Assembly (NCBI GenBank): GCA_903813345.2
Contig: CAIIXF020000001.1
Location: 25,967,915-26,031,914 of the forward strand
From: Owenia fusiformis
Taxonomy: Eukaryota > Annelida > Polychaeta > Sabellida > Oweniidae
Reading direction: 5' to 3'
Length of the DNA: 64,000 nucleotides
The position numbers were made by a program, and so were the translations under genes. Positions 960-59,683 of this stretch are shown here, in pieces. The stretch's first letter is position 1; the number at the start of each line of letters is the position of its first letter. The notes under the pieces were generated by a model. The model had not been told where the DNA came from. It did not search any database and worked only from the letters and a program-made list of their open reading frames with translations.

Positions 960-1068
960 CATTTTCTACACCTCCCATACGATGTAATATAGGCAACCAC
1001 ATGAGGCACTGGGGACCCGGATCGGACATTAACGTGTCTAGGAAATCATTCACTGTGATCTTCAACTT
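960..1068 (-). CDS. DTNA/DTNB-like: Dystrobrevin exon: end of second EF-hand-like domain
   Basis: Last dystrobrevin exon in the window, 109 nt. It starts in phase 0 after a ttattccag acceptor and ends in phase 1 at G|GTAAGC. It encodes 36 residues including [18 protein letters not shown] followed by LHRMGGVEN. These match the dystrobrevin stretch just before the ZZ zinc finger (vertebrate: [18 protein letters not shown]). The phase fits the preceding exon, which ends on a whole GGG codon. The next exon, expected to start the ZZ domain, is not in bases 1-959, so it lies outside the window. The EF-hand-like folds in this family are mainly structural and their calcium ligands are poorly kept. 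Confidence 0.92.
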
Positions 1069-25000: not shown

Positions 25001-28000
25001 GACTCTGCACGCAGGGTAACAAGACTGCCAAGTACCCTCCTATTGTATAACTTTTATTGACTCTTAGATGTCACATGGATGACATATTGACTTACCTGAC
25101 ACTGTGTTTATCATAAATTTATCCATTGTTAAAGAACTGGATGTCATATTGTTGCATAAGATGATCAAATTAACATTATCATATATAGCTAATTGAAGTA
25201 TAAAGAATCAATCATAAATGAATGTGAACGTGATAGCAATCATATCAACCTTCTGAATAATATCAAAAACAAAAACATACAGAAATAACATTGAAGTAGC
25301 GATAACTTACCATGCAGTAGTTCTATAGTAGGCTATAAAATAAATAATCCTGCATTCTAAGTTGGGTGAAAGATCAAAGGTTATAGATAAGTATCCATAG
25401 AGTCCTTATATTCAGATAAGTGACATAGTTTGTAAGGAATGTATTACCAAGGCAATCAACCAATCAATCAGTCAATCACCCAATCAATCGATTAAAAAAT
25501 CAATAACTTTATTTCTTCCAGTAAACAACTGAAATATAGTTTATTTATGTAATATGTGCTAAAGCTCCAAAACTGAAAATATCATGAGCTCCTCCTCTCT
25601 ATTTCTGCCACAGATGTTAAGTTACCTAGAGGTTGATAGATATCTTTAATAGGCATAATTGTCTTTTCAAGTAGCCAAATCAACCTATTGAAAATGGTTA
25701 TGCTATGTAGAAGATAGCAATGATGGTTAGAAAAAAAACATTTCAATTTGTATGGCCTCAATAAGTGGGCCTTTTTGGGCATTACTTGGCCTTCTAAGGG
25801 CAAATTTTCCAAAAATTGGCCTTAAATGTTCAAAATGTTTAGCAAATTTGAAATGTGCCCCCCCCCCTTGTTGGCTTCTGGATCTCCCAGTGATTACATA
25901 CTTCTTGGACATATATTCCTCAAACACGAACTGCTAGTGGAAGGGAGAGGGAAGCGGAACCTTACAAAGTTTGATCAAGAAAAATGAATGACATAAATTG
26001 AAGAAAGAAAATTATGTACTTACTTCCTGATTGACCTCAAAATCTATTTCTTGATTTATTATTCTTCTGGAACACTTGCTATTTCAATGCCAAGCATCAA
26101 TCTAGAAGTTTACAAACATACCCCATACATCTATAAATATTTATGTCCCAGACATGCAAAACCACAACTTGTTTGATAACAACAGGAAACTCCTATTTAT
26201 ATTTATATTTTCTGGAGTCAGACCTGGTTTTGATATCACATATATTATGTCTCCCAAATGGGCTGAATGAGTGGGGAGGGGGTAAGATACAGGGTGTCAA
26301 ATAGGTGCCCCTTTAATTTAAATCACAAAATGATTTTCTTAAATTCGATGCCTTTATGAATAGTCAAAAGCCATTCAGTCAATGCTGACTAAAACAAGTA
26401 TAACTGAGAAGCGATTCTAAATATCAAGACATTTCAGACCAGAAAACCACATAAAACACCATGTTCCTCTTCAAATCAGTGTTACTGTAGATCTAATTAA
26501 GAAGTACACAATAAGTTCTTTCTTTTCCAAATAGCTTACTCCATGATAAATCAAGAACACTGTCGACCTACCTTTAATATATTGTAACCTTATAGGTTTA
26601 AATTTGGTTTTCCTGATTTGAGAATGCCCTTTTTGTCTATTATTTCTCCATGAAACATATAAAAATGACTTATAATCCCTATTGTCTATATCAAAGTGTT
26701 TTCTACACTAAAATATAATGTTCAACACTGCAAATTGTTTGGTGCAATACATGTTTTAAGGCTATATCAATTAGCATGTTAATTACTGGTGTTGTTCTTT
26801 ACAATAGTACACATCATTTACATACAGTTAGAACTTGCCACTGGTGCTTTAGGTCCCATAAATGTTAAGTCTGCATTACCTACAGCCATATGCATATGTT
26901 AATACTTTAACTCTAATAGACTTGATATAAAGAGAACAGTTTCAATTTTAAAGAGATATCATTAAAAAGCATTAGCTCACCATAAAGTAATCATTATAAC
27001 ATGTACTTTAAGATTTGAAAAACCTTAACTTGGCTATTAAAATATATATAAAGGTTAAAGTCTCTGTAGATGTAACAAAAAGAAAGTCTTGAGTCATCAT
27101 ATAATATGTCAAATGAAAAATGTGAAATGTGAATTAGTTGAAATATTAACAGAAAAATGATTCTTTAAATGTTAAAATATATTTGCCTGGATCGAGAACA
27201 GAAATAACCATGGCAAGGAGTGATATGAGCCCAAACAATTCTAAAATTAAGATGAATTATTTTGAAACAAATCTCTGATACTCTCAGTCTTGCAACACAA
27301 TCAAAAGGATGTTGTTAAATATAGTTTATACAGTATATACAGTTTCATGGGCTTTGAAGAGTTCTAAAAAGCTGACTGTTTCAAATGTTGCATCCTCGGT
27401 TGCATCATTACCATGGGCTTTAAAAAGAGAGTTAAAGCCTATAGGATTACAAAGTACTACTTACTTTTAAAACGTTTCCTAAAGAATCTCCTCATTTTCT
27501 TCATGTTGTCTCTTTCCTCAGATATCAATAAGCTTTTATATACTACGTATTATCAGTCAGGCTTATTATATAATGTTACTAAGCTGGTATCTGACAGACT
27601 AATGTATGATCTTAAACAATGTTTTTATAACCACTTTTGACTCTTGGTATGCAAAGTAAAATAAACTATATGTTACTAAACATCAAAACAAAGTCAATGT
27701 ATTTCAGCATCAGCATCCAAAGTTAGAACTTCTTCAACAAATAACCATCCCTTGCTTTTGATGCTTTTCAAGACTTGTACTTGAGCTATATTGCACAAGT
27801 TTCCAACAGTAAAATCACTTGACTTATGTCTTTTATGTCTGCTGAATCATAGATACCATCCCATAAAACTCTTGTAACTGGAATATCTCCACATACTTCA
27901 AACCAATGAACACTTGTTGCTATCCTTATGGGGTCAGTCTCGATATGTACTTTGTTCTCATGAAAATCCTTTAAAAATCTATGATTTTTGCATGTATTAT

Positions 28001-31000: not shown

Positions 31001-34000
31001 AGCACACAAGAATTGGCCCAGCAAAAGCTCAAACGAAAGATGTTAATTCTGATACAGTTTATGCAATGCAAAATGATCAAACTGGAGAAGATTGGTGTGG
31101 GCTATGTTTATAACTAGACAATGGTGCTCATACATTCACTTTGACTGATTTGACTGGGCTTGGCAAAACAGCACTAATGGCCAAATCTAAAGTAATCTTT
31201 AACTACTATACTATACCCCGCATAGTTTCGAGAAAGAAAACTGATACTGAGTTGTTGGCTGCCATGCCTCATGAAGGGAGCTCACTAGTAAATGCATGTA
31301 CTGTAAGTTCTCCCAAGTATTTTATACATGCAATCAATTAGCTTGTAATATTAGAGCTAGAAAATGTAAGCTGTAAGAGGTACAAATTGTATTACAACTT
31401 GGATATCTCACCACCCAGGAGTCCGAGGGCACGTTGTGCCAAACACAGATATCTCACTTAGTTAGACACATCAAAGTATTCACTGACATTAGTAAATGTG
31501 TATAGGAAACATAACCTTTTAGAAGAAGATCTAAGAAAAATATTGAACTAGCCTTATATTTATAGAATTATCTGCTATTTCTAGACATATCGAAAATCTA
31601 CAAGAAAGTACTGTATTATAGACCAACTTTTAGAACACAACGATGCCTATCTTTCTATTTCTAAAAGTGCATCTGAAATTGACTATAAACTTGTAAAAGG
31701 ATAAACCATTCTTATTCATAACTAAGAATAAAAAAGTAATCTATATCATTCTGATACTCATCGCATCTTTCGTGTCACAGACACATTGTTGAGAAGAGAT
31801 GTGATGTCTGGTTATATCATACTCACCAAAGCTAGCCCAATCTATCTCATCTTGATCTATATCACTGCCCTCTGGTGAAGTACTAGATTCAATTGAGTAT
31901 CTTGTCCCATCATCTAACATGTCGGGCTCCTGGTTTGTCCTACTATGCGGCATTGACCATATAAATGATTGCGAAAGTTTTGCATTGTTTTCCCTCTTCA
32001 TCCCTAGAGCAAACCTAGCTTTAATTCCCATCAACATTTTGTGAAAGCAGTTGTCAAATGTCTCAATGATGCATTCATAAGGTTCAATTCGTCAAACACG
32101 GTTATCTTTCTGGCACAGTTTCGTTACAATGGCTTTCAAGGAATGTGTTTTTTCTGGCTATAGGGGTATTTTTACTGAGGATAAATGTTATCAAAACAAT
32201 GCCTTTTCGCTCTGACATTGGAGATTATTGTCTCAATGTTTACAGGTAATATCACTGCCCTTATCTACCTGTAGTAAGATATAGGCAAGCTTGGATGTGT
32301 GAATTGTTTTTCCATGAAACAATGCCTTGTAAAAAACAATCCACTTTATTTCATCAAAGTCTTCTATTTTAACTTATGGCTTGATGGGTCAAGCAGTGGA
32401 AATTAAGTAAAAAATGATGTGTCCTCTATCAAGAATAAGCTGTCTCCTTTGTCAAATGCAGCACATTTATTTTTCCAGTATGGTGTCTTCTTGTTCAGTG
32501 TGGTCCTCCCTTTAGCCTTTTATGCCAACGCCTCCTTCAGTCAACTATTTCAACTTCTAAGCCATGTATCATTATGAAGATGTAAATAACAATATGTTCC
32601 TCTATCCCAGAGCAGAACAGACCTGTTCAGATGACCACTTGACCCGCTGCAAGGTCTTCACATGTCCACCACGTCTATAAGAATCATCTATAACTGAGGG
32701 ATCCAGTTTCCCAAACACATTCCAGGACATTCTTCCTGAGGATCCTCATCCCTCAAATATTACTATAATTGGCTCCATTATTCTCTGAGATGAATCTGAG
32801 ACTTATTAATGAAAACATGTGTCTATGGATGGAAGTTTGGGTTAGATTCTATTTATTATTGCTTGTAGTACAACAGTTATGACAATTGCAATATGCCAGC
32901 CAATCAAGCATATCAATAAAGATAACTGAAAATTGGAGACTGATACGGAATTTTGAGACACGCAATAAAGAAATCGTAATTGGTTTGGAATGGAATAATG
33001 ATTCAAGGCAATTGGGGGCAATGCAATTTGACATTTTGTATTTATTTTCTAGATATTGAATATCACCAAAATATGAGAGTAACTGTTTGATTGTATAGTA
33101 AGCGTTAAGTAACCTGCGTAAAGTTTTCATGTACAGTATTGATATTTTCATTTCAAATATGGCGGTCATTCGGCCGGATGTCGGACAACCCTAACAAAAA
33201 ATCATGCCAAGGTGCATTTTTAGTATATGGGAACTTATAAGAAGGAATGAGTGGTCAGTGCATTGGAATCCTTCAAATGAAGCAGGTCTCAGCTTAAAGA
33301 GCCAATCATATAAATCAAAGTAAAGTTGAGTTGCATAGTGAACCTTACTTTATCATGGCTTTTTGATTGTGTAAAAGTTTTATTAATTAGGATTCAGAGT
33401 TATATTTTAGTGATGCACATTTTGTACTTTATAATTATAATGATTGCATATACAGAACATGTATTCATGGCTTAGAAAGAATTCTAACTCGTCCGATGAT
33501 TTTTACACGCTGAACTGACCAAACAACATAACTTAAAGTGGCATTTTCTTACTATTTTTTGGGATATTTTCACTGTGTCACTCGAACTAAGGACACAAGT
33601 CTATTCTAACCCTAAAATTACAATTTCTCATCTAAAACAATGGTCTCATAATAAGATATAAACATGACAAAATTACACACCTGGTTAGTTATTGCAAATG
33701 GTTACAAAAGTATAACAATTTGTTATGTGTAACAATTTGTCACAGGTACCAAATGTGAAGTGCCAACTTCAACTTGCAAATTCTAAATGCCAGTCAAAAA
33801 AAGTTGCTATAACAATATGTCACCAGCAATTAACCAGAAATTTTCTGAAATATATATAAAAATCTCTAAAAGCTGCAGTAGATGAAACTTCATGGACCTA
33901 CTATCTTCCAGTCTTTAGACATGCAAAAAACAAATGTAAGAGATATTGAAACCTTCTGACATGCCAAACACATTTGTACTGAAAACATGTCTGCAGTGAT

Positions 34001-37000: not shown

Positions 37001-40000
37001 AACCAGATGAAGCTCTCTTCCTTACTGGGGCAAAAAGCACTATAATACTGACGATATTTTGAAAATTGCCTTGATGGTACCTCTGAAATAATATATATTG
37101 TATATACATGGGCATACATATATAGTGTTATATATCATTTTAAAGCATATGATATACTCTTTCAGAATGAATAGTTTTTTAAGTCCCAATTTATAAGTTG
37201 TCATGGTTATAAGATTCCCAAAAAAATACATTGGGTTTGTGCTTGGACTTGATATCACGTCCTTAGTAGTCAACGTATGTGCTTTATGACGTCATATCAA
37301 GTCCTTAGTAGCGAATGAGTTAAGAACCAAAGTCAAACCAATGCAAAGGGTATATAGGATATCATTCACAAGCATAGAATGCAGTTAGGCCACTAGCTCA
37401 GGTAAATAAAGGCAGGAACTCCTCAACTTGAGGAATTTCTAAGAGCTTTTGATTAGCCTGATATGTAAAGTGTGAAATTGTTAAGGTAACCATAGTAGCT
37501 ATTAACTAAACCATAGTAGCTGCTAGCAAACTATGATAGTCATCATTCTCATTAAATGAAACTTTTATTCCTGTATTCCATAAAATAAAAGATCACTGAG
37601 TCAGCATTAAACAAAAAATAAGATTACCCTCATCATTGTCATCATAAGAGTTTTTAAGACTTTTTACCTTTACATAATGGATGTTATGAATGATTGCCAT
37701 AAATGTAATATTTATTGTTTAGAGAAATCACAAAAGTAATCTTCTACATTGTAATATATCACAGTGACAGTAAAACCAGCTGTTGGCTAATTAGATAAAA
37801 AGTAATTTACTTTAACACTGCATACTTCTTTATCAGTTATATTGACCTTGGTGGTTTAGTAATGCAATTTGGGGTACAGAGAGACTAAGAAATATATGAT
37901 ATTCAAAGATCAACCTCTGAAATCAGATATAGAATAACTAATTACATTTTTGCCTTATTCAACTATAATTACACCTAGATATTTGATAGCAAGAGAGATG
38001 TATGTTATTTTATTCACTGATTTTCTCCTTAAATACAGTTTAACATGAGGTTCAAAATTCCAAAACATGGCCAGTTAATTATGATATTGAATCAGATAGA
38101 TAGAGAAGATGTTCCAAAGTATAAATTCCTGCAGCTGTGTGTTTTACTGTAGTAGTCAAACATATTAATAAGTGTCTATGGTTGTTCAATAGCATCTGAT
38201 TCATGGGAAATATCTATAATGTATCATATGTAACATGAGGGGTGTACAAAGTCGCAGAGGAATAGCATTCCACTGTGGCCAGCTTGCTATTCCTTTTTTA
38301 TAGAAACATCCTACACTTTGTTATATTGCATGCTACTTGGGTGTAGGTCCCTGCACCTCAACCCCACCTCTAGACTAGAGGGAAGTGTGGAGGTTCTATT
38401 TATGGATCAGTGACTGCTATCAGGCTAGATGGCCTGGCAAGGGCCAAAATGATTATCAGGAGGATACATGACTTAACCCCACTAACATGTTTTTCAATGA
38501 CGATAGTCTCGCATGAATATACATATCTCTGCTTCCCCATTTCCCCAAACCTGCGCAAGAGAAAAAGTGGTGGAGGGATAAGGACAACCAATAGACCTAA
38601 AGCAGGACTAAACAATGGGAATCTATAACATACCTTTATCTTTGAGCTCCTTGTTTATTCCCGCAATAACATGGGCAAAGTTTGTGTTATTTGAGCTAGA
38701 ATGGCCTGAATGCCCTGGATACGCAACACATTGAGTCATCCTCCTTAAATTCAATAAACTCCTTAAATATTATATCCAGACTGGTGTCAGATATGACTAA
38801 TGAAATCCCCTGTGTCAGTATTTCTCTTTTGATAATGGTGTATGCTTTTTAAAGTCCATACAGTCCATTAAATATTAATTGCTGTATCTAATTTCTACAT
38901 ATATATAGAATTGTACCATGTGTCATATCAGCCTCTACAGAGTATAATTGTACCTAGCGATCCTGATTATATTAACCCATATAACATTGTTAGATACCAG
39001 CTCTATTGTTTTTATAGCACAATTAGTTTAAGTTATGGCCTCTAACAAGCAATAATGAATTGTAATGTTGATGTTATTCCATCTGTTTATACAAAGATAT
39101 TCCCTTTCTTTAACTGTAGCTTTATCATTTGCGATCCTGCTTCATAAGCCATTCACCAAGGCATCTTCGTTATATAAACCAATGTTTTCATCATCGCCTG
39201 ACTGGCTTTCCTCCTGAAGTTGAAACCCAATTGTTCTAATGAAGACAAATGATCAAGGAAACCCCTTGCACTAGAATATCACACTTTAAAACGTGTAACA
39301 TCAACAGTCATTCTCTATGTACAAGGTCTCCTCAATTGCATGATAGAAATATCAGTAGATGATTCCAAAAATCTGACTCTGGTTTTATCCTCTAAATACA
39401 TACATGGCTAGGCCAAGCACTTCATTTATAACATGGTATAACTGATTATCTCAATATACACAGTACTCCAAGGTGGAATATTGATAAATCAGTCTCTTCA
39501 TCCAGCAAACATATACTCAAAGCCAAAATGTCAATAATTTGGCATTGGGAATCAGTAAAACTTGTATAGAATACAATCCATTTTCAATTCAGCTCATCGC
39601 AGCTCTAAAGCTATTAATAACTGATATACCTAGATCCCATCTTTATGATACCTATATCATCTCTCTTGCCAGTAAAAGTCATACTTGTGTTTTGGTTACT
39701 ATAGTAACTGTATCATATGATTCGTTTTAGATTTATATATACACCTGATTTGTCCATAGATTGAGTCAACCTTATACAGATTGAGGCTGATCATGTTAAA
39801 GTTGATAATGAACAGCTGCCTCTGGCCATATCAATAATTTCTGTTCGGAAATATATGTGTATTCATTTCTTTCTGATTGATATGAGATGATGGCCTATAG
39901 GTGCCAATAATCCAAAGAAACTGACATGATTAAAATACAGATTTAATCAATAGTTCTGCAATCTCACAGCAACTCATGGCATTATTGTAAAAAGAGAAAC

Positions 40001-55000: not shown

Positions 55001-58000
55001 GCATGTTTATTTACTTAGCTAATTAGATATGTAAAATTGTTAATGGCCGCAACGGATAATACGTACATGTAAGCTGTTCGGATAAGACATTTCTAAATGA
55101 TTAATAACAAATGTTATTCAGCAGAATGTTATTCAGCAGTAACAGATCTTATTAGTTATTATTCAATTTGGATAATAAATCTATTATCTCGTCGTATTGA
55201 TGTTTATTATATAGTGTTTCTCGTTGTGTATCTCCTATGTGTGATGCTTTGGATGATGAGCAACATTTTGCTAGGATTTGTCAAAAAAATACAGAAAGAA
55301 TACTTCAATTTGACACTATTAGACAATTTAATTTAATAGGCAGTCCTGATGTTATATTTAAAAAGCATATGTCCCATTAAAATTTTTATGTAAATTTACA
55401 TTTAGTTAAAATCATTTATCATTCATTCAAGAATATGATAATTAATGTGTCAGTGATACATTACCCTGCATGCAGAGTCTAGTTAAACTACACTCTGCCT
55501 AGTAGAGACCATATTACAGTTTAGTAGCCCCGTTCCCACGACGGGTACCGGTGACAGTTTGGGTAAATCACTTTTGACCTACGCGCTGACCTTCCACCAA
55601 TCAGCGAGCTTGAAGAAACCATATGCCAAATGCATTCTAATTAAATATGCGCATGTCATTGGTCAATTCCGGGCTCAACGATGGCGCAAGAAGGAATGAC
55701 CATATAAAGAATGTCGGTCAAATTTGGCCGACGAACACTGATTGGTGCGGTGAGTTCACAGGTTTATTTTAGTTTGAAAGAGTGAAGACGAAGCTCTCTT
55801 TTAAGAAGTGAAGTGAAGTGAAGTGAAGTGTGATACATCACACTGATATTTTAACATTTTGTCTTGCTGCATTTCAAAGTGCCTAATGACTTCATATTTT
55901 TATATTTTGTCATATATTTTTGAATGTTGTTACTACAGTCTAGTTTAAATTAATTTTTGTACTAACATGTCATTGCAATGACATCAGAGAGTCATAAAAG
56001 ACATAATATGTATATAATTAATATGTGTGCAATAAAAAAAAAACCATGTAAGTGACAATGCTTGGGGTCAGATGGATAGATATTACGTGACAAGGAAGAG
56101 TGTTTTTTATTTATGAGGCATATGATGTACCACTTTCAATTAGCTTTGGTAACAGAAATATGTCACCCACTGGAATTAATCTATATAAATCACAAAATTC
56201 ATCATCATCCCATATCATGGGAAATTATATAAAATACAATTCGAACTGAAAAATGACACAAACGTAACCTTACAAAATAAAAGTTCTTCTTTTTCGATAA
56301 ATGTGAAGGCTGTAATCTAAGAACTACAGGAAACTCAAGAAAGATAAATCAATTAATAACAAAATAACATAGAAGCAGCCCTGTAGACAATTCTTGTTTT
56401 CTTGATCAATCAAAATTGAAAAACTTAAAAACATACCATCCCAAAATAAGCCAGCATGTATTTACTTGCAAGGTACAACAGGAGTGTAATCTAATGTATT
56501 ATTAAAAAATCAAATATTTGTACTTCATTTACACAGACAAAGGCAATGGAAGGAAGATCAATGTAAGCCGATCATCTGGTTCATTATGTCTGCACTGGTA
56601 TTATTAGTACTTACCCTTTTTACTAATGCAGCTGAGGCAACTTGACGATTTCTTTGAACGTTTATCTCTACGTTTCTTGGACTCTGAATCGAGCGATAAA
56701 ATGGTTACTTTTTTATCGAGGCCTACTCCATTTGAGCGTATTTGTTCTATTGGTTCAGCGTGTCCATTTAATCCATTGCTGTTTGATTGATTCAGTAGTT
56801 TATTTTCCTGTTGCTTTGGTGGATAAATCATCCGACCAGGACTTCCTTCCTCGATTGGGTATACTACAGCCATACCCTGACGCTTGCTGGTCATTGGGCT
56901 AGGCTTTGTAAATGTAAAGTCGCCATTGGCATTCTCTATCACATGATTGCTAGAGTACATTGTGAAGCTGGCTTCTTCTCCGTGAATTATTCTCTAATAA
57001 ATCTTAAATTAATCCTAATTCAAAGGCCTGATTTCCTGTTCTCCATCAGTCACAATATTTCAGCCAAGCTTTGAAATAAGATAGCTGATAGCTACTGAGA
57101 CCTGTATTATACCTTCTTGTCTGATGTCTCAGTCTTTGTATATTCCTCTCTTTATATATACGAGTATGTACCACCGTTTCGTCAGATCATATTAATTCTC
57201 TGCTTTATAAATGTAAGATTTACACCTGCTGTAGAAGCATATTATACTGGTATGACGCAAGAAACAATTAATCTGATTATTCTAACGCACAATAACTAAA
57301 CATTTTCTTAATATATAAAATTCTAAGCTGATATATATTAAAAGCCTTTCTTTCCTCAGCATGGCAAAAAACAATTACGTGTATCTTTACTTGCAGAATT
57401 ACATAGTAAAGAAAAAGACCAAGCATATGCAAGACAAGCCATGGTTGTCGAGATGATAGCTTGTTATATAAACAATATAAATGTATTAGGTAATTGTAAT
57501 AATGATTTGGGATTAGCCGAGTTGACGACATATGAAAAAGTTTCATTTGAATCTGCTCGATATTATATTACCCTCCTTGCCCTATACAAGATTCATGGCA
57601 TTTAATATTTGAGTTATAGCCAATTGTAGAATTACTGTGGGGGATTGGTGCTAAACTAATTACACAAATATGTGAAATATCTAACAATTTGTCTCATAAT
57701 ACAGACGCTAAAATTGGCTACTCTATAGGGCCCACTTATATTCTCAATCCATTTATGCATTAGGAATCTATCGGAAACCCCTGATGTTTTTTGTATTGAT
57801 ATGTAGGGTTAGAATGAATAAATTTGCAGTATAAAATCCTAGTATTTATTGCTAGAACCTGAAGTGCAATTAAACCCTATTAGCCTCAGAGAAGAGAAAA
57901 TAAAAGCTGACGCTTCATCCTCATAATCGTTTATCTGAGATTCTGAAGAATTGGCACCAATTGATGCAATATCATACATGCATTAATTCAACAGAAATTG

Positions 58001-59683
58001 ATTCTATTAATATATATGCTATGATCAGTCATTAGTTAATGAATAAACAAGTAAAAAATCACTGAATTGAAGCACTGACAGAATAAATTTTTCATGATAA
58101 TCAAAAAATCTGTGTTTTGTCTAAAGTGGAGATGTTGCAATAAATCTTTCTATTTTCATTACAAATATTTCATTACATGAACAATATTGAAGTCCTTTGA
58201 GGATTACAATTTCTGTAAATTAGCCAAATTACATCAGTAAATCACCTTGTGTTATTACTATGTTATGACAAAAATGTAACATAAATTACAAATTGCCTAA
58301 TTCTGAAATTTAATAGCCATTATTACGCCCAAGACTTAGTTGAAAAGTTACTCCAAAGGAATTAAATATTAAGTAAATCATGACAAATAGATATAACTTG
58401 ATCCATTTTGAATATGTATCAGTCAACATAAACATGGACTTAATCATATTCAATAACTTTTGCATCTACTTAAAAAAATCAGAAAAATTCCGGGAAGAAC
58501 ATGCCTGGAATTCTTGCAGAGGAAAGCAGTTTTATTAGGTTCTACTATAATAGACTAGATGCGAGTAGAAATAATCTTAATTTAATTGAATATATAAAAT
58601 TCAGTCAAAGAGGTGTCATTTTTGAAATCTACATGTAAAAGTACAATGTATATCTAAATATTGTGGTTTCAAAAATTGTTCATTCAACTTTGAAAATTTA
58701 ATTTTTTTGAAAATTGATTCACTGAAACTGACAAATATTCAAGTTAAGGGAACTTTCTACTATACCCGCCATGTTATCTGACCTGAATGAGCCACCTGGT
58801 GGTGAAACTGATAACTACCTACTCATATCTAGATTATTGTTAAGACATTAAATACTTGTTAGACTAAGATGATAGGATTTTATGAATCCGTTTGATTCAA
58901 AGTCAAACCCTATACACAAGTAGAAAAGTTGCAAATATGAAAATATGAAAAAGTTTTCAGAATATCATACAAATCTGCACGGAACATGACACCTCTTCAT
59001 AATCATAGCTTTTATCAAAATGGAGACACGTATCATCATTAAAGCAGATCAAAGAAATGAGTCAGAATCTTTAAGGATGGAGTTGAGAGCCAGAATCCTC
59101 TTAGGAACCTCTTATTCCATAAGCCAATGATTCTCATAATGCTAAATACTTATTTATGGCATGACATGGAATTCTCAGAGAACCCCTGTATCAGGAAGAA
59201 ATATATACTTAAAATATAATCATGGCAATTTGAATGTGCTCTACCATATGAAACATTCAAAAATGTAAATATTCAGAGATTTCCAATAACATAAGATTAT
59301 ATATGTTTTATAGAAGCTAGAAATAGGTGAATCATCATTGATGACAGCATAAATCTATGCTAAATATGACAATGTTAGATGACTGGAGACAAAATCCATA
59401 AGTTGCTTGTGTCAGGTTGACATTTTTCTGCATGGTGATGAAGTACCAATGCAAAGCAAGTAAAAAAGTTTACCTAGATCCAGATGCATTATTCAGTAGA
59501 TGCACAATTTGAATAGATGAGTTCGTCAGTGAATAAGTAGGAATGCTACCATTCTATAAAATCGAATATCTTAAAGCGATTAATAAATCTTTTACCTGAA
59601 TCTTTCTCCCAGAAGTCATCCCAAGAATCTTCGAAAAATAATTTTACAATTTCATTGGACCGAGACTTGTTGATGTTCAACAT
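960..59683 (-). CDS. DTNA/DTNB-like: Dystrobrevin gene, 5' part, with alternative first exons (span; exons listed separately)
   Basis: Dystrobrevin is a cytoplasmic member of the dystrophin-glycoprotein complex. It binds dystrophin through coiled coils and syntrophins through its C-terminal half. Seen here: six common exons (744 nt) and up to five alternative first exons, all with consensus GT/AG ends and matching phases. With the longest first exon the window encodes 363 complete residues, then one base of a split codon. The segments [18 protein letters not shown] and [15 protein letters not shown] are hallmarks of dystrobrevin rather than dystrophin. The ZZ finger and everything after it must lie left of position 1, so the gene is partial. 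The first intron exceeds 48 kb for the 56.9-kb start and holds most of the repeats described here. Family assignment is firm; assignment to one vertebrate paralogue is not meaningful in an invertebrate. Confidence 0.93.
1381..1532 (-). CDS. DTNA/DTNB-like: Dystrobrevin exon: second EF-hand-like domain
   Basis: An exon of 152 nt. It begins with two bases completing a split Tyr codon (T|AT) after a tgcttttag acceptor, and ends phase 0 at GGG|GTGAGA. It encodes [17 protein letters not shown], then [15 protein letters not shown] and RACFDG, clearly the dystrobrevin sequence (vertebrate counterpart: LPTAVFEGPSFGYTE). The first 31 nt of this exon, together with its acceptor, are copied several times in the upstream intron as a 70-bp tandem repeat (1502-1800). 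The true exon is told apart by GGAGTGATGG where the copies read GGGTGATTAC. Confidence 0.95.
1502..1800. repeat. 70-bp tandem repeat copying a dystrobrevin splice acceptor and exon start
   Basis: Unit starts are at 1502, 1572, 1642, 1712 and 1782 (period exactly 70, about 4.3 copies, very similar). Read on the minus strand, each unit holds a pyrimidine-rich acceptor ending in tag/aag, then the first 31 nt of the 1381-1532 exon. The first unit is the real exon edge; the others lie in the intron. See the matching finding. Confidence 0.93.
2494..2579 (-). CDS. DTNA/DTNB-like: Dystrobrevin exon: linker between the EF-hand-like domains
   Basis: An exon of 86 nt between a ctcttgcag acceptor and an AAT|GTAAGT donor. 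It starts with one base completing a Leu codon (CT|A) and ends with the first base of the Tyr codon finished by the 1381-1532 exon. It reads [19 protein letters not shown], then SGKLVDKLQ(Y), matching the vertebrate dystrobrevin segment around GKLTVFSVKAMLATMCGGK. The exon is too short to stand out as an open frame. It was found by looking for the missing stretch between the two longer exons. Confidence 0.93.
3526..3739 (-). CDS. DTNA/DTNB-like: Dystrobrevin exon: first EF-hand-like domain
   Basis: An exon of 214 nt from a tttccag acceptor to a CT|GTAAGG donor. It starts with two bases completing a Leu codon (T|TG) and ends with two bases of the next Leu codon. It encodes 70 full residues: [20 protein letters not shown] at the start, then [35 protein letters not shown] and NGYD. 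This is the dystrobrevin EF-hand 1 region almost position by position (vertebrate: HLVDIWNVIEALRENGLNNL). An apparent initiator just upstream reads GTG in the genome and is only the split codon, so the exon is internal. Confidence 0.96.
4217..4446. mobile_element. Hairpin MITE in a dystrobrevin intron
   Basis: About 60-bp imperfect inverted repeats: the left arm 4219-4280 contains ACTGGGTTGCCAAAAAA and the right arm 4385-4444 contains TTTTTTTGGCAACCCAG, with about 100 bp between. There is no open frame. Non-autonomous DNA transposon by structure; superfamily not assigned. Confidence 0.75.
6058..6186. repeat. Near-perfect palindrome (57-bp arms)
   Basis: Arms 6058-6114 and 6127-6186 are inverted copies: GGTTTACTGTCAAAATTATA on the left and the complement on the right, both bounded by GACCTCTCC / GGAGAGGTC. 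The loop is about 12 bp. It touches the Crypton-like fragment at 6192-6479 and may be part of the same inserted element. Confidence 0.85.
6192..6479 (-). pseudogene. Crypton-like (tyrosine recombinase family) N-terminal fragment
   Basis: A frame of 95 codons with a true ATG at 6479 and a second, better-placed ATG opening MAAASTSRF. The next part, [20 protein letters not shown], then [13 protein letters not shown], resembles the N-terminus of Crypton-derived proteins (pattern RF..V.E.DI..LLE.KDS.NTK, then a helix and L..L...L). These come from a tyrosine-recombinase transposon. After TADILKY the likeness stops, and the frame runs into unrelated sequence and the palindrome. The recombinase core is absent, so this is a truncated remnant in a dystrobrevin intron. 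The resemblance is from memory of the family, not from a search. Confidence 0.5.
6893..7070. mobile_element. Small TIR element, GTAGCCAG family (degenerate)
   Basis: It begins CAGGCTGTAGCCAGC and ends GGGCTACTGGCCTG, an imperfect inverted pair, with a G-rich left and C-rich right interior. It resembles the better preserved copies at 22405-22457 and 34878-35041. Confidence 0.5.
7216..7624. mobile_element. 409-bp near-full hairpin MITE with 5-bp flanking repeat
   Basis: The whole element folds on itself around 7418. The termini CACGCGGTACTAAC and (complement of the right end) CACACGGTCCTAAC match. Inner arms share TTTTGGTCCCCA and GCGAGTCTCATACTGCAC/GTGCAGTATGAGACTCG. TGTAT stands on both sides (7211-7215 and 7625-7629), a likely target duplication. 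Small open frames inside come from the hairpin and are not genes. Confidence 0.85.
7683..7763 (-). CDS. DTNA/DTNB-like: Dystrobrevin exon: conserved N-terminal helix
   Basis: An exon of 81 nt between a gtctttcag acceptor and an AATT|GTGAGT donor. It begins with two bases completing an Arg codon (A|GA) and ends with one base (T) of the Leu codon finished at 3739. It encodes [20 protein letters not shown] and then IQKRTN. The vertebrate equivalent is [20 protein letters not shown], so the identity is not in doubt. It lies just left of the 7216-7624 hairpin MITE (its 3' side), so that insertion sits in the following intron. Confidence 0.95.
7953..8054 (-). CDS. DTNA/DTNB-like: Dystrobrevin exon: common exon joined by all alternative first exons
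   Basis: An exon of 102 nt, acceptor cttgcag and donor ATGA|GTAAGT. It starts with two bases (GA) that need one base from the exon before, and ends with one base (A) of the Arg codon completed at 7763. It encodes [20 protein letters not shown], then [13 protein letters not shown]. The final TDMR followed by AQNFD aligns with the vertebrate sequence EMRAQDLD. The part before it is Ser/Thr-rich and not conserved. An internal ATG (Met-Glu-Asp) could start the protein if a non-coding first exon is used. It needs a phase-1 partner, which all the proposed first exons supply. Confidence 0.9.
8240..8310. repeat. 17-bp tandem repeat
   Basis: About four copies of TTTCTCTGGTAAACACA, the later ones diverged (tctctgataaacac). 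Intronic; no function visible. Confidence 0.7.
8655..12721. mobile_element. 4.07-kb element with long terminal inverted repeats, no transposase
   Basis: The left end reads TTAGTCCGGTGGCCAA and the complement of the right end TTAGTCCAGTTGCCAAA. The two arms stay collinear through shared blocks: AAAGTTTTTTTCT, AATCTGCAAAAT, a C/G-run block, TTTATTATACTCAAATGAAAG and TTGCAAATATTGTATCATTT. The left arm ends near 9490 (about 835 bp) and the right begins near 12190 (about 530 bp), so one arm carries an indel. The 2.7-kb interior holds no frame over about 75 codons. A non-autonomous long-TIR DNA transposon is the best reading. No clear target duplication was seen. Confidence 0.8.
9490..9575 (+). other. 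tRNA-Leu/Ser-like sequence, probable SINE head or tRNA relic
   Basis: TATGGCCGAGAGGGCTTGAG contains a textbook A box (TGGCCGAGAGG, as in Leu/Ser tRNAs). About 60 nt later GAGTTTGAGAC stands where the B box (GGTTCGAATCC) would be, but it is degraded. The acceptor ends do not pair well. It lies at the inner edge of the left arm of the 4.07-kb element. Not a working tRNA gene. Confidence 0.35.
12801..13629. mobile_element. 829-bp TTAA-flanked non-autonomous transposon (piggyBac-like by target site)
   Basis: TTAAAGGCCCCATATAAAGTTT at the left and, complemented, TTAAAGTCCCCGTCTAAAGT at the right form the terminal inverted repeats. Both begin with TTAA, the usual piggyBac target duplication. The interior is T/A-rich without an open frame. 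The piggyBac label rests on TTAA alone. Confidence 0.65.
13960..15150. repeat. 28-bp minisatellite with higher-order structure
   Basis: The basic unit is CCCCTACTCTTTCCTTAATC followed by ATAAACAA, repeated some 35-40 times with length variants. A distinct block (AGCAGCCCCAACTATTTTCT, then AAATAATGAACATACCCTAC) recurs near 14103, 14441 and 14860, so a larger block of roughly 340-420 bp has itself been duplicated. Open frames here are accidental. Confidence 0.9.
15240..16575. repeat. Satellite array of about ten 123-140 bp units
   Basis: Repeated marks ACATGTAGATGATTTTGAAA occur near 15341, 15477, 15601, 15743, 15878, 16006, 16139, 16268, 16460 and 16583. Between them lie GTCAATTTGAAGCAAGTTGA, TTTTTGACCTTGAGAAGGTC and AAATGTCAAATCTAAAGTCA. 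The last unit runs into the short repeat at 16573-16772, whose first bases are the same GTAGATGATTT mark. Confidence 0.93.
16573..16772. mobile_element. GGTGGTGACATAATAATA-ended short repeat, second copy
   Basis: Collinear with the start of the window: GTAGATGATTT, AATTGAAGTCAGTCTAAACA, GGAAGTTGTAAGAA, GAGACCATAACAATATG and CACCACTTTTGGTGGTGACA. Its middle carries a run of GACGCCGGACGCCA repeats missing from copy 1. The closing CACCACTTTTGGTGGTG is itself a small palindrome. Confidence 0.75.
17340..17640. repeat. 25-32 bp minisatellite (AGCTGCCACATGATTTACCTG)
   Basis: About ten irregular copies of TTTTAGCTGCCACATGATTT followed by ACCTG. On the gene's strand several units read CAG|GTAAATC, a donor-like site, but no open frame in the needed phase precedes it. 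Confidence 0.85.
17641..19784. other. Intron, no gene seen
   Basis: AT-rich DNA with a C-run near 18805. Two donor-like sites on the minus strand (18960, AAAG|GTAAGG; 19125, AAG|GTAAGG) follow short ATG frames that close with TAA just before the junction, so they are not coding first exons. Confidence 0.5.
19785..20702 (-). mobile_element. LINE (non-LTR retrotransposon) 3' end, bounded by a 19-bp direct repeat
   Basis: The minus strand holds an open frame at 19949-20440 without a true ATG. It encodes [14 protein letters not shown], then [20 protein letters not shown] and [14 protein letters not shown]. The C..C....H...EC layout matches the zinc-binding C-terminus found after the reverse transcriptase in many animal LINEs. 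After the stop come about 90 bp of 3' sequence and an (AAATA)n tail at 19822-19856. ATTATACCATATTCTCTCA occurs at about 19785-19803 and 20682-20700 and may be the target duplication. In that case bases 20460-20680, which look unlike a LINE, are extra inserted sequence. The reverse transcriptase itself is missing. Confidence 0.7.
20703..21354. other. Intron, no gene seen
   Basis: A minus-strand open stretch (20673-20873) carries no recognisable protein and overlaps the direct repeat at 20682. Nothing else supports a gene. Confidence 0.45.
21355..21580. mobile_element. GGGCATTACTGGGCCTT repeat, copy 1
   Basis: It starts with a G-run and runs TTTTTGGGCATTACTGGGCC, later GCCCCCCC-like runs and TTGTTGGTTTCAAGATCT. 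It is homologous to 25755-25890. Open frames across it are shadows. Confidence 0.6.
22405..22457. mobile_element. Minimal TIR remnant, GTAGCCAGG family
   Basis: CAGGCCCGCAGCCAG and CTGGCTACGGGCCTG face each other across a short C-rich core; an almost completely deleted copy of the element at 34878-35041. Confidence 0.65.
22889..23593. mobile_element. Hairpin element with arms of about 180 bp
   Basis: GCAAAGGTCCATGTGCAGTA and GGCAAGTGATTTTAGAC start the left arm at about 22890. The complement lies at 23592 leftwards. The arms also share ACTTTCTGG and ATACAGTGGTT / TTATTAAAACAATATGTT. The minus-strand open frame at 23329-23643 crosses the right arm and is incidental. Confidence 0.75.
24649..25018. 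mobile_element. 370-bp Mutator-like MITE, 9-bp target duplication (copy 1, full)
   Basis: The ends are TACCCTTTGCATTCG and GACTCTGCACGCAGGGTA (inverted TACCCT..GCA). ACAAGACTG stands directly outside both ends (24640-24648 and 25019-25027). The interior is richer in CpG and has GACGTCATCG and CCACCAATCAGCG-type motifs. A full inverted partner is at 55462-55829. No transposase. Confidence 0.88.
25096..25147 (-). CDS. DTNA/DTNB-like: Possible alternative first coding exon of dystrobrevin (17 codons)
   Basis: An in-frame TGA lies about 80 nt upstream and the first ATG after it is at 25147. The frame reads [17 protein letters not shown] and reaches a strong TCAG|GTAAGT donor in phase 1, as required to join 7953-8054. 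The ATG at 25126 (Met-Asp-Lys, with A at -3 and G at +4) is an alternative start. A 370-bp Mutator-like MITE begins 78 bp beyond the donor. The open stretch is short, so a chance ATG-plus-donor pair cannot be excluded. Confidence 0.4.
25148..25754. other. Intron, no gene seen
   Basis: A short block CAATCAACCAATCAATCAGT lies near 25457. On the minus strand a 22-nt segment near 25315-25336 sits between an acceptor-like ttttatag and ATG|GTAAGT. It could be a tiny exon, but nothing else supports it. Confidence 0.45.
25755..25890. mobile_element. GGGCATTACTTGGCCTT repeat, copy 2
   Basis: Shares TTTTTGGGCATTACTTGGCC, a C-run and CCTTGTTGGCTTCTGGATCT with 21355-21580. Truncated. Confidence 0.6.
25891..28933. 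other. Intron, no gene seen
   Basis: About 3 kb of AT-rich sequence without a recognisable protein, RNA or repeat structure. Scattered donor-like sites (for example near 26023 and 26983) lack a suitable open frame. Confidence 0.5.
28934..29092. mobile_element. GGCGTAGCCAGG-type TIR element (degenerate copy)
   Basis: ATAGGTGTAGCGATCACACC at the left and AACCTGGCTATGCCT at the right, a C-run and a TTTTT/AAAGAAGAGCTTTAAAATGC core. Compare 48309-48535, which shares the layout. Confidence 0.6.
29093..30639. other. Intron, no gene seen
   Basis: AT-rich until about 30380. Bases 30390-30540 are less AT-rich with CGCGCCCGAT, ATCACGTGAT and TTGCGACAGCCAATCAG, an E-box-like and CCAAT-like cluster. Regulatory function is only a possibility. 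Confidence 0.4.
30640..30725. repeat. 85-bp segment paired with 52690-52775
   Basis: Shares CATTCTGGTTTACCAGA-like, CTTATCTG-like and AAAGACAAAGGG-like blocks, about three bases in four, with 52690-52775 in the same orientation. See the matching finding. Confidence 0.5.
31827..32037 (-). CDS. DTNA/DTNB-like: Alternative first coding exon of dystrobrevin (70 codons)
   Basis: This exon opens with ATG at 32037, has an in-frame TGA about 55 nt upstream, and stays open for 70 codons to a TTTG|GTGAGT donor in phase 1. It begins [20 protein letters not shown], has a Ser-rich middle ([12 protein letters not shown]) and ends acidic ([12 protein letters not shown]). Joined to 7953-8054 it gives ...WASF-G-HLGS. 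I recognise no domain. The upstream stop and strong donor make it a first exon rather than an internal one. A promoter would lie right of 32.04 kb; I see no clear core motif there. Confidence 0.75.
32038..33993. other. Intron; region upstream of the 31.8-kb first exon
   Basis: No coding signal. ATGGCGGTCATTCGGCCGG near 33157 is a small CpG-containing patch. A promoter for the first exon at 31827-32037 should lie in the right-hand neighbourhood of 32.04 kb, but no TATA or initiator can be singled out. Confidence 0.4.
33994..34172. mobile_element. CAGTGATCTCCCCAG-ended TIR element, 5-bp target duplication (copy 1)
   Basis: The ends are CAGTGATCTCCCCAGCAT and (inverted) CAGAGATCTCCCCAGGAT. GTCTG repeats at 33989-33993 and 34173-34177. 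It is 179 bp and non-coding. The copy at 44964-45169 has the same ends. Confidence 0.82.
34878..35041. mobile_element. CAGGCCCGTAGCCAGG TIR element
   Basis: The terminal inverted repeats are CAGGCCCGTAGCCAGG and CCTGGCTACGGGCCTG, 16 bp and perfect. The interior has GGGGGGTT at the left and CCCCCCTGG twice at the right. It is 164 bp; the plus-strand frame across it is incidental. Confidence 0.82.
35042..35879. other. Intron, no gene seen
   Basis: A minus-strand open stretch reaches a donor-like CTG|GTATGT at about 35482, but in phase 0, which cannot join the common exon in frame. Confidence 0.45.
35880..36725. repeat. 54-bp minisatellite, about 15 copies, open in one plus-strand frame
   Basis: The unit starts GTTTGCTGTATCTAGAACCC, then TCTATCCAGTACCGTAGGTG and TGCATTCTACAATG. 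Because 54 is divisible by 3, one frame stays open for 266 codons and reads an 18-residue repeat ([18 protein letters not shown]). The frame begins at a TTG with no ATG near its start, no splice site flanks it, and changes between units are not of a coding type. I therefore call it a non-coding repeat. Confidence 0.88.
36726..38633. other. Intron, no gene seen
   Basis: AT-rich. Near 37246-37310 an inverted pair GGACTTGATATCACGTC / GACGTCATATCAAGTCC and a doubled GTCCTTAGTAG are visible. Nothing else. Confidence 0.5.
38634..38739 (-). CDS. DTNA/DTNB-like: Probable alternative first coding exon of dystrobrevin (35 codons)
   Basis: An ATG at 38739 is preceded by an in-frame TAA 36 nt upstream. 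The frame reads [20 protein letters not shown] and ends [10 protein letters not shown] at an AAAG|GTATGT donor in phase 1. This matches the common exon at 7953-8054. The composition (Ser/Asn/His, then a Lys/Glu-rich end) shows no known domain. A 35-codon open frame is possible by chance in AT-rich DNA; the support is the agreement of upstream stop, donor and phase. Confidence 0.55.
38740..40969. other. Intron; region upstream of the 38.6-kb first exon
   Basis: No coding signal. Near 40200-40290 GACCCCTCATTNTTCCTT, GATGGAAACA and GGTCTAGATATG occur twice about 60 bp apart, a local duplication. A strong donor-like GAG|GTAAGG near 40484 follows a frame that closes just before it. Confidence 0.45.
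40970..41750. promoter_or_regulatory. CpG-richer segment, possible promoter with a non-coding first exon
   Basis: It stands out from its AT-rich surroundings: GTGACGTCACG (41630), GATCACGTCATC (41274), CCAAGATGGCGG (41294), AACGCCGGGC and GAGAACGAGACG. On the gene's strand an AAAAAAG|GTAAGC donor lies at about 41054, downstream of this zone. The only ATGs before it open very short frames. This would suit a 5' UTR exon, with translation starting at the internal ATG of 7953-8054. A guess from composition and motifs. Confidence 0.3.
41493..41567 (-). tRNA. tRNA-like sequence with A box, B box and T-run terminator (probably a relic or SINE)
   Basis: On the minus strand TGGTCTAAAGG fits the A-box consensus and GGTTCGAATCC is a perfect B box. 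CTTAGCA stands where an anticodon loop would be (AGC, Ala-like), and a run of 14 Ts follows as a pol III terminator. The seven bases before the A box (ATAACGG) do not pair with the 3' end (CTCGCTC), and the anticodon stem has mismatches. The pol III signals are good but the fold is not a normal tRNA. Confidence 0.45.
41930..42012 (+). repeat. 80-bp segment repeated inverted at 51215-51300
   Basis: CGTCGCTTTCTACTGGGTCT, then GGAACAATCAAAACCTTGTG and AATCAAGATG, about nine bases in ten identical to the complement of 51215-51300. See the matching finding. Confidence 0.8.
42013..43042. other. Intron, no gene seen
   Basis: Plain AT-rich sequence; the short open frames on both strands have no support. 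Confidence 0.5.
43043..43350. repeat. Two-copy tandem duplication, period about 175 bp
   Basis: TTATCCCTGCTTCGGACAAA near 43058 and TTATCCCTGCTTCAGACCAA near 43233, each followed by TTGAATGTCTTCTTTTGAAT-like and GGTAATATTTCTA blocks. Diverged, non-coding. Confidence 0.8.
43351..44963. other. Intron, no gene seen
   Basis: A plus-strand ATG frame of 63 codons at 44496-44687 has no recognisable domain and is discussed under rejected items. Otherwise empty. Confidence 0.45.
44964..45169. mobile_element. CAGTGATCTCCCCAG-ended TIR element, 5-bp target duplication (copy 2)
   Basis: The ends CAGTGATCTCCCCAGGAT and ATGCTGGGGAGATCACTG are inverted. CTAAA repeats at 44959-44963 and 45170-45174. Inside, AGGTGGGTGCAAA recurs three times. 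206 bp, non-coding; related to 33994-34172. Confidence 0.88.
46019..46308. mobile_element. Mutator-like MITE (copy 2, 290 bp)
   Basis: TACCCTGCATGCAGAGTCTA at one end and CAAATGCAAAGGGTA at the other, inverted relative to 24649-25018. The flanks CTTTCTGTC and CTCTCTGTC agree in 8 of 9 bases. Confidence 0.8.
46751..46979. mobile_element. CAGGGCTCTCGCCAGG TIR element
   Basis: CAGGGCTCTCGCCAGG at the left and CCTGGTGAGAGCCCTG at the right, 16 bp inverted with one mismatch. 229 bp. The interior has two inverted CACCACAC blocks. No certain target duplication. Confidence 0.78.
46980..48170. other. Intron, no gene seen
   Basis: AT-rich; short open frames only. Confidence 0.5.
48171..48261. mobile_element. 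Mutator-like MITE (copy 3, 91 bp)
   Basis: TACCCTTTGCATTCGTTTGA at the left and CACGCAGGGTA at the right, with ACTATTGGC on both sides (48162-48170 and 48262-48270). Confidence 0.88.
48309..48535. mobile_element. GGCGTAGCCAGG TIR element
   Basis: GGCGTAGCCAGGGGG at the left and CTGGCTACGCC at the right; inside, GCGATCGCACCCCCCC and a second CGATCGCAC before a run of about 22 Cs. A truncated relative begins at 51676. Confidence 0.78.
48775..48862. mobile_element. Mutator-like MITE (copy 4, 88 bp, opposite orientation)
   Basis: TACCCTGCGTGCAGAGTCTA to CGAATGCAAAGGGTA; GTTTTATGA on both sides (48766-48774 and 48863-48871). Confidence 0.88.
49710..49829. mobile_element. 120-bp palindromic MITE
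   Basis: ACATTTGCTCAGATTTTCA and TGAAAATCGGAGCAAATGT are inverted, as are CGGCGCCCGGCCGATGAGTA and TACTCAATCGGCCGGGCGCC. The centre lies near 49768. GC-rich arms in AT-rich DNA; the frames on both strands are palindrome artefacts. Confidence 0.85.
49892..49975. mobile_element. Mutator-like MITE (copy 5, 84 bp)
   Basis: TACGCTGCGTGCAGAGTCTA to CAAATGCAAAGGGTA. The flanks GGGCTCTAT and GGGTACTAT agree in 7 of 9 bases. Confidence 0.75.
50240..50925. repeat. Duplicated 165-bp segment, copies at 50255-50415 and 50755-50925
   Basis: Both copies carry AAGAATCTAACATTTAATGA, AAAAGGATTAATTGCT, GCGGAAGTGTACCAACATCA and AAATTGCTTTTAATT in order, about 500 bp apart. Each is open on the minus strand up to a shared TAA, but most differences change the amino acid, so it is not maintained as a protein. 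Confidence 0.85.
51215..51300 (-). repeat. Inverted partner of 41930-42012
   Basis: On the minus strand CGTCGCTTTCCACTGGGTCT, then GTAGGAACAATCGAAACCTT and GTGAATCAAGATG. Confidence 0.8.
51676..51710. mobile_element. Truncated GGCGTAGCCAGG element
   Basis: TAGGCGTAGCCAGGAGGGGG and a G-run, then GTGCGATGGGTGCGATAACA. Only the left end is recognisable. Confidence 0.5.
52690..52775. repeat. 85-bp segment paired with 30640-30725
   Basis: TTTTGGTATGCCAGAGCCAC, CTTATCTGCCG and GATAAAGACAAAGGGGTTGC align with the 30.6-kb segment almost without gaps. Confidence 0.5.
52924..53423. mobile_element. 500-bp TIR element ending CAGGCCTGTCAAC, 6-bp target duplication
   Basis: CAGGCCTGTCAAC and GTTGACAGGCCTG are perfect 13-bp inverted ends. 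ATGCCT stands on both sides (52918-52923 and 53424-53429). Inside are GAACACCT repeats, a run of about 18 Gs and several GCGTGACA motifs. Open frames on both strands are not supported as genes. Confidence 0.88.
53615..53915. repeat. Two-copy tandem duplication, period about 192 bp
   Basis: GAATGGAGACTTGTTTCC near 53630 and GGATGGAGACTTGTTTCC near 53823, each followed by a CACTAGTA/TCTAGTA block and TTTAAATATTTGAT. Non-coding. Confidence 0.8.
55462..55829. mobile_element. Mutator-like MITE (copy 6, 368 bp, inverted to copy 1)
   Basis: It runs TACCCTGCATGCAGAGTCTA, through the same CpG-rich core as 24649-25018 in reverse, to a degraded end made of GAAGTGAAGTG repeats. GTGATACAT stands on both sides (55453-55461 and 55830-55838). 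Confidence 0.88.
55839..56614. other. Intron just downstream of the 56.6-kb first exon
   Basis: AT-rich; no further feature. A donor-like ATG|GTATGT near 56437 is in phase 0 after a seven-codon frame. Confidence 0.5.
56615..56960 (-). CDS. DTNA/DTNB-like: Alternative first coding exon of dystrobrevin (115 codons)
   Basis: The longest N-terminal exon, 346 nt, with ATG at 56960, an in-frame TAG about 36 nt upstream, and an AAAAGG|GTAAGT donor in phase 1. It starts [19 protein letters not shown] and continues with a Pro/Gly segment ([15 protein letters not shown]) and an Asn-rich stretch ([15 protein letters not shown]). It ends in a strongly basic Ser/Cys tail (KKRRDKRSK, then [12 protein letters not shown]) before the Gly shared with the next exon. 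The basic tail with two close cysteines could serve membrane binding by acylation or nuclear entry; this is inference only. No domain is recognised. It predicts a dystrobrevin with about 115 extra residues compared with short vertebrate N-termini. Confidence 0.82.
56961..59595. other. Region upstream of the 56.6-kb first exon; intron for the 59.6-kb start
   Basis: The promoter of the 115-codon first exon should lie here, within the first kilobase or so, but no clear core motif can be named. The rest is AT-rich with no gene. Confidence 0.4.
59596..59683 (-). CDS. DTNA/DTNB-like: Probable alternative first coding exon of dystrobrevin (29 codons)
   Basis: An ATG at 59683 (A at -3) follows an in-frame TAG 27 nt upstream. 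The frame reads [20 protein letters not shown], then WDDFWEKDS, and ends in phase 1 at TCAG|GTAAAA. It is the farthest upstream start in the window. The acidic, aromatic end recalls the DEIDWASF end of the 31.8-kb exon, which may be coincidence. The donor's last bases are weaker than in the 56.6-kb exon. Confidence 0.55.

Follow-up and report, generated by a model that had tools for sequence, protein, structure and literature searches.

We put forward that the dystrobrevin gene of the annelid Owenia fusiformis can start from two or more alternative first coding exons. Two of them, A and B, would each have a promoter of their own and be spliced to the acceptor at 8054, and so provide the protein with different tails; we give this reading a probability slightly above one half (about 0.53). 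Considered separately, A is probably a first coding exon of dystrobrevin, for B the balance tilts the same way, and C, D and E are each unlikely to be one; these gradings are judgements and were not calculated. An earlier note on the window (the whole stretch of 64,000 nucleotides analysed here) had proposed an array of five such exons. The proposal is supported for A and B, whose sequence evidence goes beyond chance, and not for C, D and E, which are inseparable from chance stretches. The array of five thus reduces to two supported alternative first exons, and the mechanism is one already known. The features are collected in table 1.

Table 1. Candidate first exons, possible core promoter and common exons of the dystrobrevin gene (positions are those of the window).
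Feature	Position	Strand	Remarks
Candidate A	56615..56960	minus	115 codons + 1 base; basic tail; donor AGG/GTAAGT; length beyond most simulations
Candidate B	31827..32037	minus	70 codons + 1 base; acidic end; donor TTG/GTGAGT
Candidate C	38634..38739	minus	35 codons; donor AAG/GTATGT; unproven
Candidate D	59596..59683	minus	29 codons; donor CAG/GTAAAA; unproven
Candidate E	25096..25147	minus	17 codons; donor CAG/GTAAGT, top donor score of the five; unproven
Possible core promoter of A	57151..57158	minus	TATATAAA; 198 nt ahead of the start codon of A and followed by TCAGACA after 36 nt
Common exon 1	7953..8054	minus	acceptor GTTTCTTTGAATACTTGCAG (by eye), donor GTAAGT; in-frame ATG at 8040-8038
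Common exon 2	7683..7763	minus	part of the joined protein matching dystrobrevin
Common exon 3	3526..3739	minus	EF-hand_2 region
Common exon 4	2494..2579	minus	part of the core joined in frame; Pfam scan
Common exon 5	1381..1532	minus	EF-hand_3 region; tandem copies of the acceptor upstream
Common exon 6	960..1068	minus	last in the window; gene runs on past the left edge

Six minus-strand exons between 960 and 8054, spliced in silico, yield 247 open residues that cover the EF-hand region of dystrobrevin. The best PDB match of the joined protein is Dystrobrevin (E 4.2e-89, 301 bits; dystrophin reaches 105 bits), and Pfam recognises EF-hand_2 (PF09068, E 1.4e-42) and EF-hand_3 (PF09069, E 6.6e-31), a region nearer to that of dystrobrevin than to that of dystrophin. 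By these matches the identity and reading frames given in the earlier note are correct, and, judged by its sequence, the six-exon locus is an animal dystrobrevin gene, which leaves the window at its left edge beyond exon 6, so that the ZZ domain, syntrophin-binding site and coiled coils expected of a dystrobrevin would lie outside it. Exon borders were fixed from reading frame, protein similarity and splice signals, with acceptors judged by eye. All six core exons end in GTRAG donors, a count that is not wholly independent since splice signals partly set the borders. The good acceptor before 8054 implies that at least one exon must exist upstream of the first common exon.

Each of the five minus-strand candidates has an ATG with an in-frame stop 9-21 codons upstream and no in-frame ATG in between, ends at a GT in phase 1 and, joined to the GA of exon 7953-8054, produces a Gly codon, just as first described. 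At least two ATG-bearing stretches share the phase required by a single common acceptor, and two of the five, as open stretches with donors, lie beyond chance. Phase 1 was a search criterion, and the Gly results from the usual last G of an exon together with the GA fixed by the common exon; the shared phase and Gly are thus weak evidence, and we rejected the common Gly as a signature. The tails were also rightly called unrelated to one another, blastp at E<=10 returning self matches only, and duplication among them is not supported. Nor is a repeat origin of A, B, C or D, none of which has a second copy within this window. A and B carry GTRAG donors like the core exons; the donors of C (38634, GTATGT) and D (59596, GTAAAA) depart from this pattern. 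Read without splicing, the frame of A stops three codons beyond the donor and that of B continues for 28, reaching a stop-to-stop length of 116 codons, barely longer than other open reading frames (109-113). An A occupies position -3 of the ATG in 5/5 candidates vs 21/63 ATG-open GTRAG candidates, which favours the set, short members included, as an observation made post hoc.

The number and length of such stretches were compared with chance by counting minus-strand candidates of at least 17 codons in phase 1, ending in G, with donors of at least 2.7 bits, in the window and in 100 second-order Markov simulations. Twelve were found against a simulated mean of 5.0 (8 on the plus strand; 6 and 4 in the other two minus-strand phases). 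The five candidates first singled out belong to these 12 similar ones, another of which (56876-56960) is nested in the 115-codon frame; the excess is mild and proves no short member. At least 29 codons were attained by 5, against 2.2 in the simulations and 6 on the plus strand, at least 35 by 4 (simulated mean 1.4) and at least 70 by 2 (0.12 simulated, none on the plus strand, where one of 69 codons lies in phase 0). When the donor had to be GTRAG and the last base was left free, the 7 stretches of at least 17 codons compare with 6.6 and 4.8 in simulations of order 2 and order 4 (200 runs each) and with 10 on the plus strand. In this stricter comparison A and B alone stand out, and the caution that the 17-, 29- and 35-codon members need proof is borne out. 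At the upper end of the distribution, no other minus-strand ATG-open GTRAG candidate matches A and B in length; both are in phase 1, and on the plus strand no candidate reaches 70 codons. The open frames, their phases and the splice signals can be read directly in the window, and both A and the pair of A and B depart from chance.

Length bears on A and B differently. An alternative that we regard as somewhat unlikely is that, of the five, only A serves dystrobrevin as a first coding exon, B, C, D and E being parts of an AT-rich intron (GC of the window 0.30-0.38) that are open by chance. A is exceptional alone, since 115 codons arose in 1/100 of the second-order runs and in 0/200 and 2/200 of the GTRAG runs. 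Given that at least one phase-1 frame of 70 codons or more appeared in 10/100, 30/200 and 21/200 of the same runs, and in 71/600 of another set, B alone is unexceptional by length. Nevertheless, two distinct phase-1 frames of at least 70 codons occurred together in only 3/600 runs, B has a GTGAGT donor and an A at -3, and it leads the longer candidates in composition. B is thus exceptional only jointly with A or by composition.

Composition was scored for 56 ATG-open donor candidates, in all phases and on both strands, from amino acids against the window background and codon-position bases trained on the core exons. The scripts used a matrix for donors, the Swiss-Prot composition, the TESTCODE tables for Fickett's test and a set of promoter motifs. 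By sum, B ranks 2, A 4, C 8, D 14 and E 30; per codon, B ranks 5, C 8, A 11, D 14 and E 41. Ranks 1, 3 and 5 by sum fall to plus-strand stretches (51587, 53381, 55647), so this score alone is not proof. Of the stretches that reach 45 codons, 10 on the two strands together, B (+15.3) and A (+9.7) alone score positively, the other eight ranging from -4.3 to -17.0; the six core exons, the training set for the codon-position part, span -4.2 to +16.4. Amino acids contribute little to the score of A (+1.7 over 115 residues). Fickett's test argues against coding in A and B: their values (0.60, rank 43/56, and 0.70, rank 34/56) fall under those of five of the six core exons, which range from 0.53 to 1.17. 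The short members have higher values (C 1.00, D 0.89, E 0.96), unsteady as these are in short stretches.

A different scenario, which we consider improbable, is that translation of dystrobrevin begins with the ATG at 8040 and that the upstream stretches are untranslated, unused or parts of other genes. In the alignment, query residue 19 corresponds to residue 6 of the PDB dystrobrevin and this ATG is residue 5. The common exon thus already provides a vertebrate-like N-terminus, and, as the ATG precedes the start of the vertebrate dystrobrevin chain, an upstream coding exon would extend rather than complete the protein. With an in-frame ATG in the common exon, the first exon could just as well be untranslated, in which case its phase would not matter; the claim that phase 1 is strictly needed consequently stands if translation begins upstream and falls otherwise. 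This scenario, however, leaves to coincidence that A and B are both in the required phase (1 in 3 each), and the ATG at 8040 has a T at -3 where A and B have an A. In addition, the minus strand of the window was scanned for another host gene through nearly all of its stop-to-stop frames that reach 90 codons, the exons aside. None of these 11 other frames reaches the Pfam cut-off, a scan that short exons would escape, and seven of them together gave a single sub-threshold match (E 0.042); no other host gene is thus recognised. Finally, that all five or more are real, in a plectin-like first-exon array with very short members, is very improbable: the 12 candidates against 5.0, the common A at -3 and the Fickett values of C, D and E within the core-exon range, unsteady at such lengths, are in its favour, but the GTRAG count stays near the simulated values and under that of the plus strand, C and D are without GTRAG, and E combines a low composition rank by either measure with an end 75 nt from a repeated element.

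That element, whose copy ends at 25021, belongs to a dispersed repeat family present at 24649-25021 and, inverted, at 55461-55822, with pieces at 46015-46125, 48171-48863 and 49891-49976; the matched segments, 22-227 nt long, mostly show 80-100% identity. Additional repeats and open stretches are found elsewhere in the window. In the exon 5 region (1496-1800, minus strand) a 70-nt tandem repeat of 4.3 copies with 96% matches duplicates the 3' splice site and the start of exon 5. The acceptor at 1533, the one that keeps the frame, is preceded by three others of almost the same sequence (AG at 1743, 1673 and 1603), each of which would lead to 11 residues and then a TGA stop. To judge from their sequence, these three may be either decoys to be skipped in splicing or a poison-exon switch. 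A protein-like open stretch of 102 codons (6192-6500, minus strand) falls in the intron that separates common exon 2 from common exon 3; its sub-threshold Pfam matches include a phage-integrase SAM-like domain (E 0.04), and it may be what is left of a tyrosine-recombinase mobile element. Another open stretch, of 167 codons (19949-20452, minus strand; sub-threshold zf-RVT, E 0.006) is likely a remnant of a LINE-type reverse transcriptase. On the plus strand, a 54-nt tandem repeat of 13 copies (35865-36564) holds an open frame of 273 codons, to which a repeat unit that is a multiple of three gives rise; the frame is likely an artefact of the repeat.

Returning to the reading with A and B as alternative first coding exons, transcripts would start from A or from B, which lie ~49 kb and ~24 kb, respectively, ahead of common exon 1, with a promoter for each, and either exon would be spliced G/GA onto the acceptor at 8054. 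The products would share the same dystrobrevin body behind a front tail of 116 (A) or 71 (B) residues preceding the vertebrate-like N-terminus. We infer the transcription of A and B, their splicing to 8054, their promoters and the function of their tails. A possible core promoter of A is found at TATATAAA; the generic initiator pattern has no match at the site formed by it and TCAGACA. As background, 13% of positions have a TATAWAWR box 41-250 nt upstream. Such boxes lie 166-277 nt upstream of C and 563-565 nt upstream of D, and none occurs within 600 nt upstream of B and E. Multi-promoter control of the gene, as put forward in the earlier note, is something we only infer.

Tail A contains 19 K/R, 11 D/E and 2 Cys, with a net charge of +7 over its last 25 residues; tail B, acidic and Trp-containing, has a net charge of -6 over the same length. 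By analogy with other proteins, the polybasic end of A and its two cysteines could give membrane attachment, tail B ending acidic, and promoter choice would then determine the location of the scaffold. We regard as unlikely the further idea that promoter choice supplies N-terminal address tags, A being maybe lipid-modified and membrane-held without dystrophin and B held elsewhere, so that the front end would place the scaffold as in plectin. Pfam scans of tails A-D gave no match for A or B and only a sub-threshold RNA ligase for D (E 0.021), and PDB searches with A and B gave no convincing match. Relatives of tail A and of the core are absent from viral and prokaryote contigs, and those of tail B from viral contigs; as these collections are without animal genomes, the absence says little. 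The acidic, Trp-containing ends of tails B and D were also considered as W-acidic motifs of the kinesin light-chain type, an idea dropped because neither fully fits the consensus of these motifs.

According to PMC2796648, invertebrates have a single dystrobrevin gene, so that isoforms would be a main route to varied scaffolds in muscle, nerve and epithelium. No invertebrate dystrobrevin isoforms are described in 12 of 16 places of an evolution review (PMC10293626), and no upstream coding tails for alpha-dystrobrevin in 12 of 15 places of PMC2796648. Among the matches listed, in a search that did not extend to subscription papers and database isoform predictions, no paper concerns coding tails ahead of an invertebrate dystrobrevin, and none by title concerns bivalve dystrobrevin or dystrobrevin palmitoylation. 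If true, coding tails ahead of an otherwise full dystrobrevin would represent a type of isoform absent from these literature matches, and they would suggest an anchoring independent of dystrophin.

The closest parallel is provided by dystrophin and utrophin, members of the same protein superfamily, whose shorter products (Dp260, Dp116, Dp71, G-utrophin) have separate promoters and first coding exons joined to shared exons, intragenic promoters accompanying large introns (parts of PMC1790709). Their first exons replace long N-terminal parts and thus truncate the protein, whereas the candidate tails here would extend a complete dystrobrevin. The same paper suggests modification of the conserved N-terminal cysteines of Dp116, G-utrophin and DRP2 as possible. 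Vertebrate alpha-dystrobrevin itself has more than one promoter and an alternative first exon, 7b, for isoforms 4 and 5 (PMC2796648, in part). Exon 7b starts inside intron 7 and gives N-terminally truncated isoforms, in contrast to the upstream extensions considered here. In plectin, twelve first exons are spliced to exon 2 and give different N-termini, of 180 and 37 residues for two of them, and one targets mitochondria (sections of PMC8468861). The likeness lies in many first exons with differing N-terminal sequences meeting one shared exon; plectin, however, is an unrelated gene in which this has been shown by transcripts and knockouts, whereas the dystrobrevin candidates are known from genomic sequence alone. 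The general mechanism of alternative first exons is thus familiar from dystrophin and utrophin, alpha-dystrobrevin and plectin.
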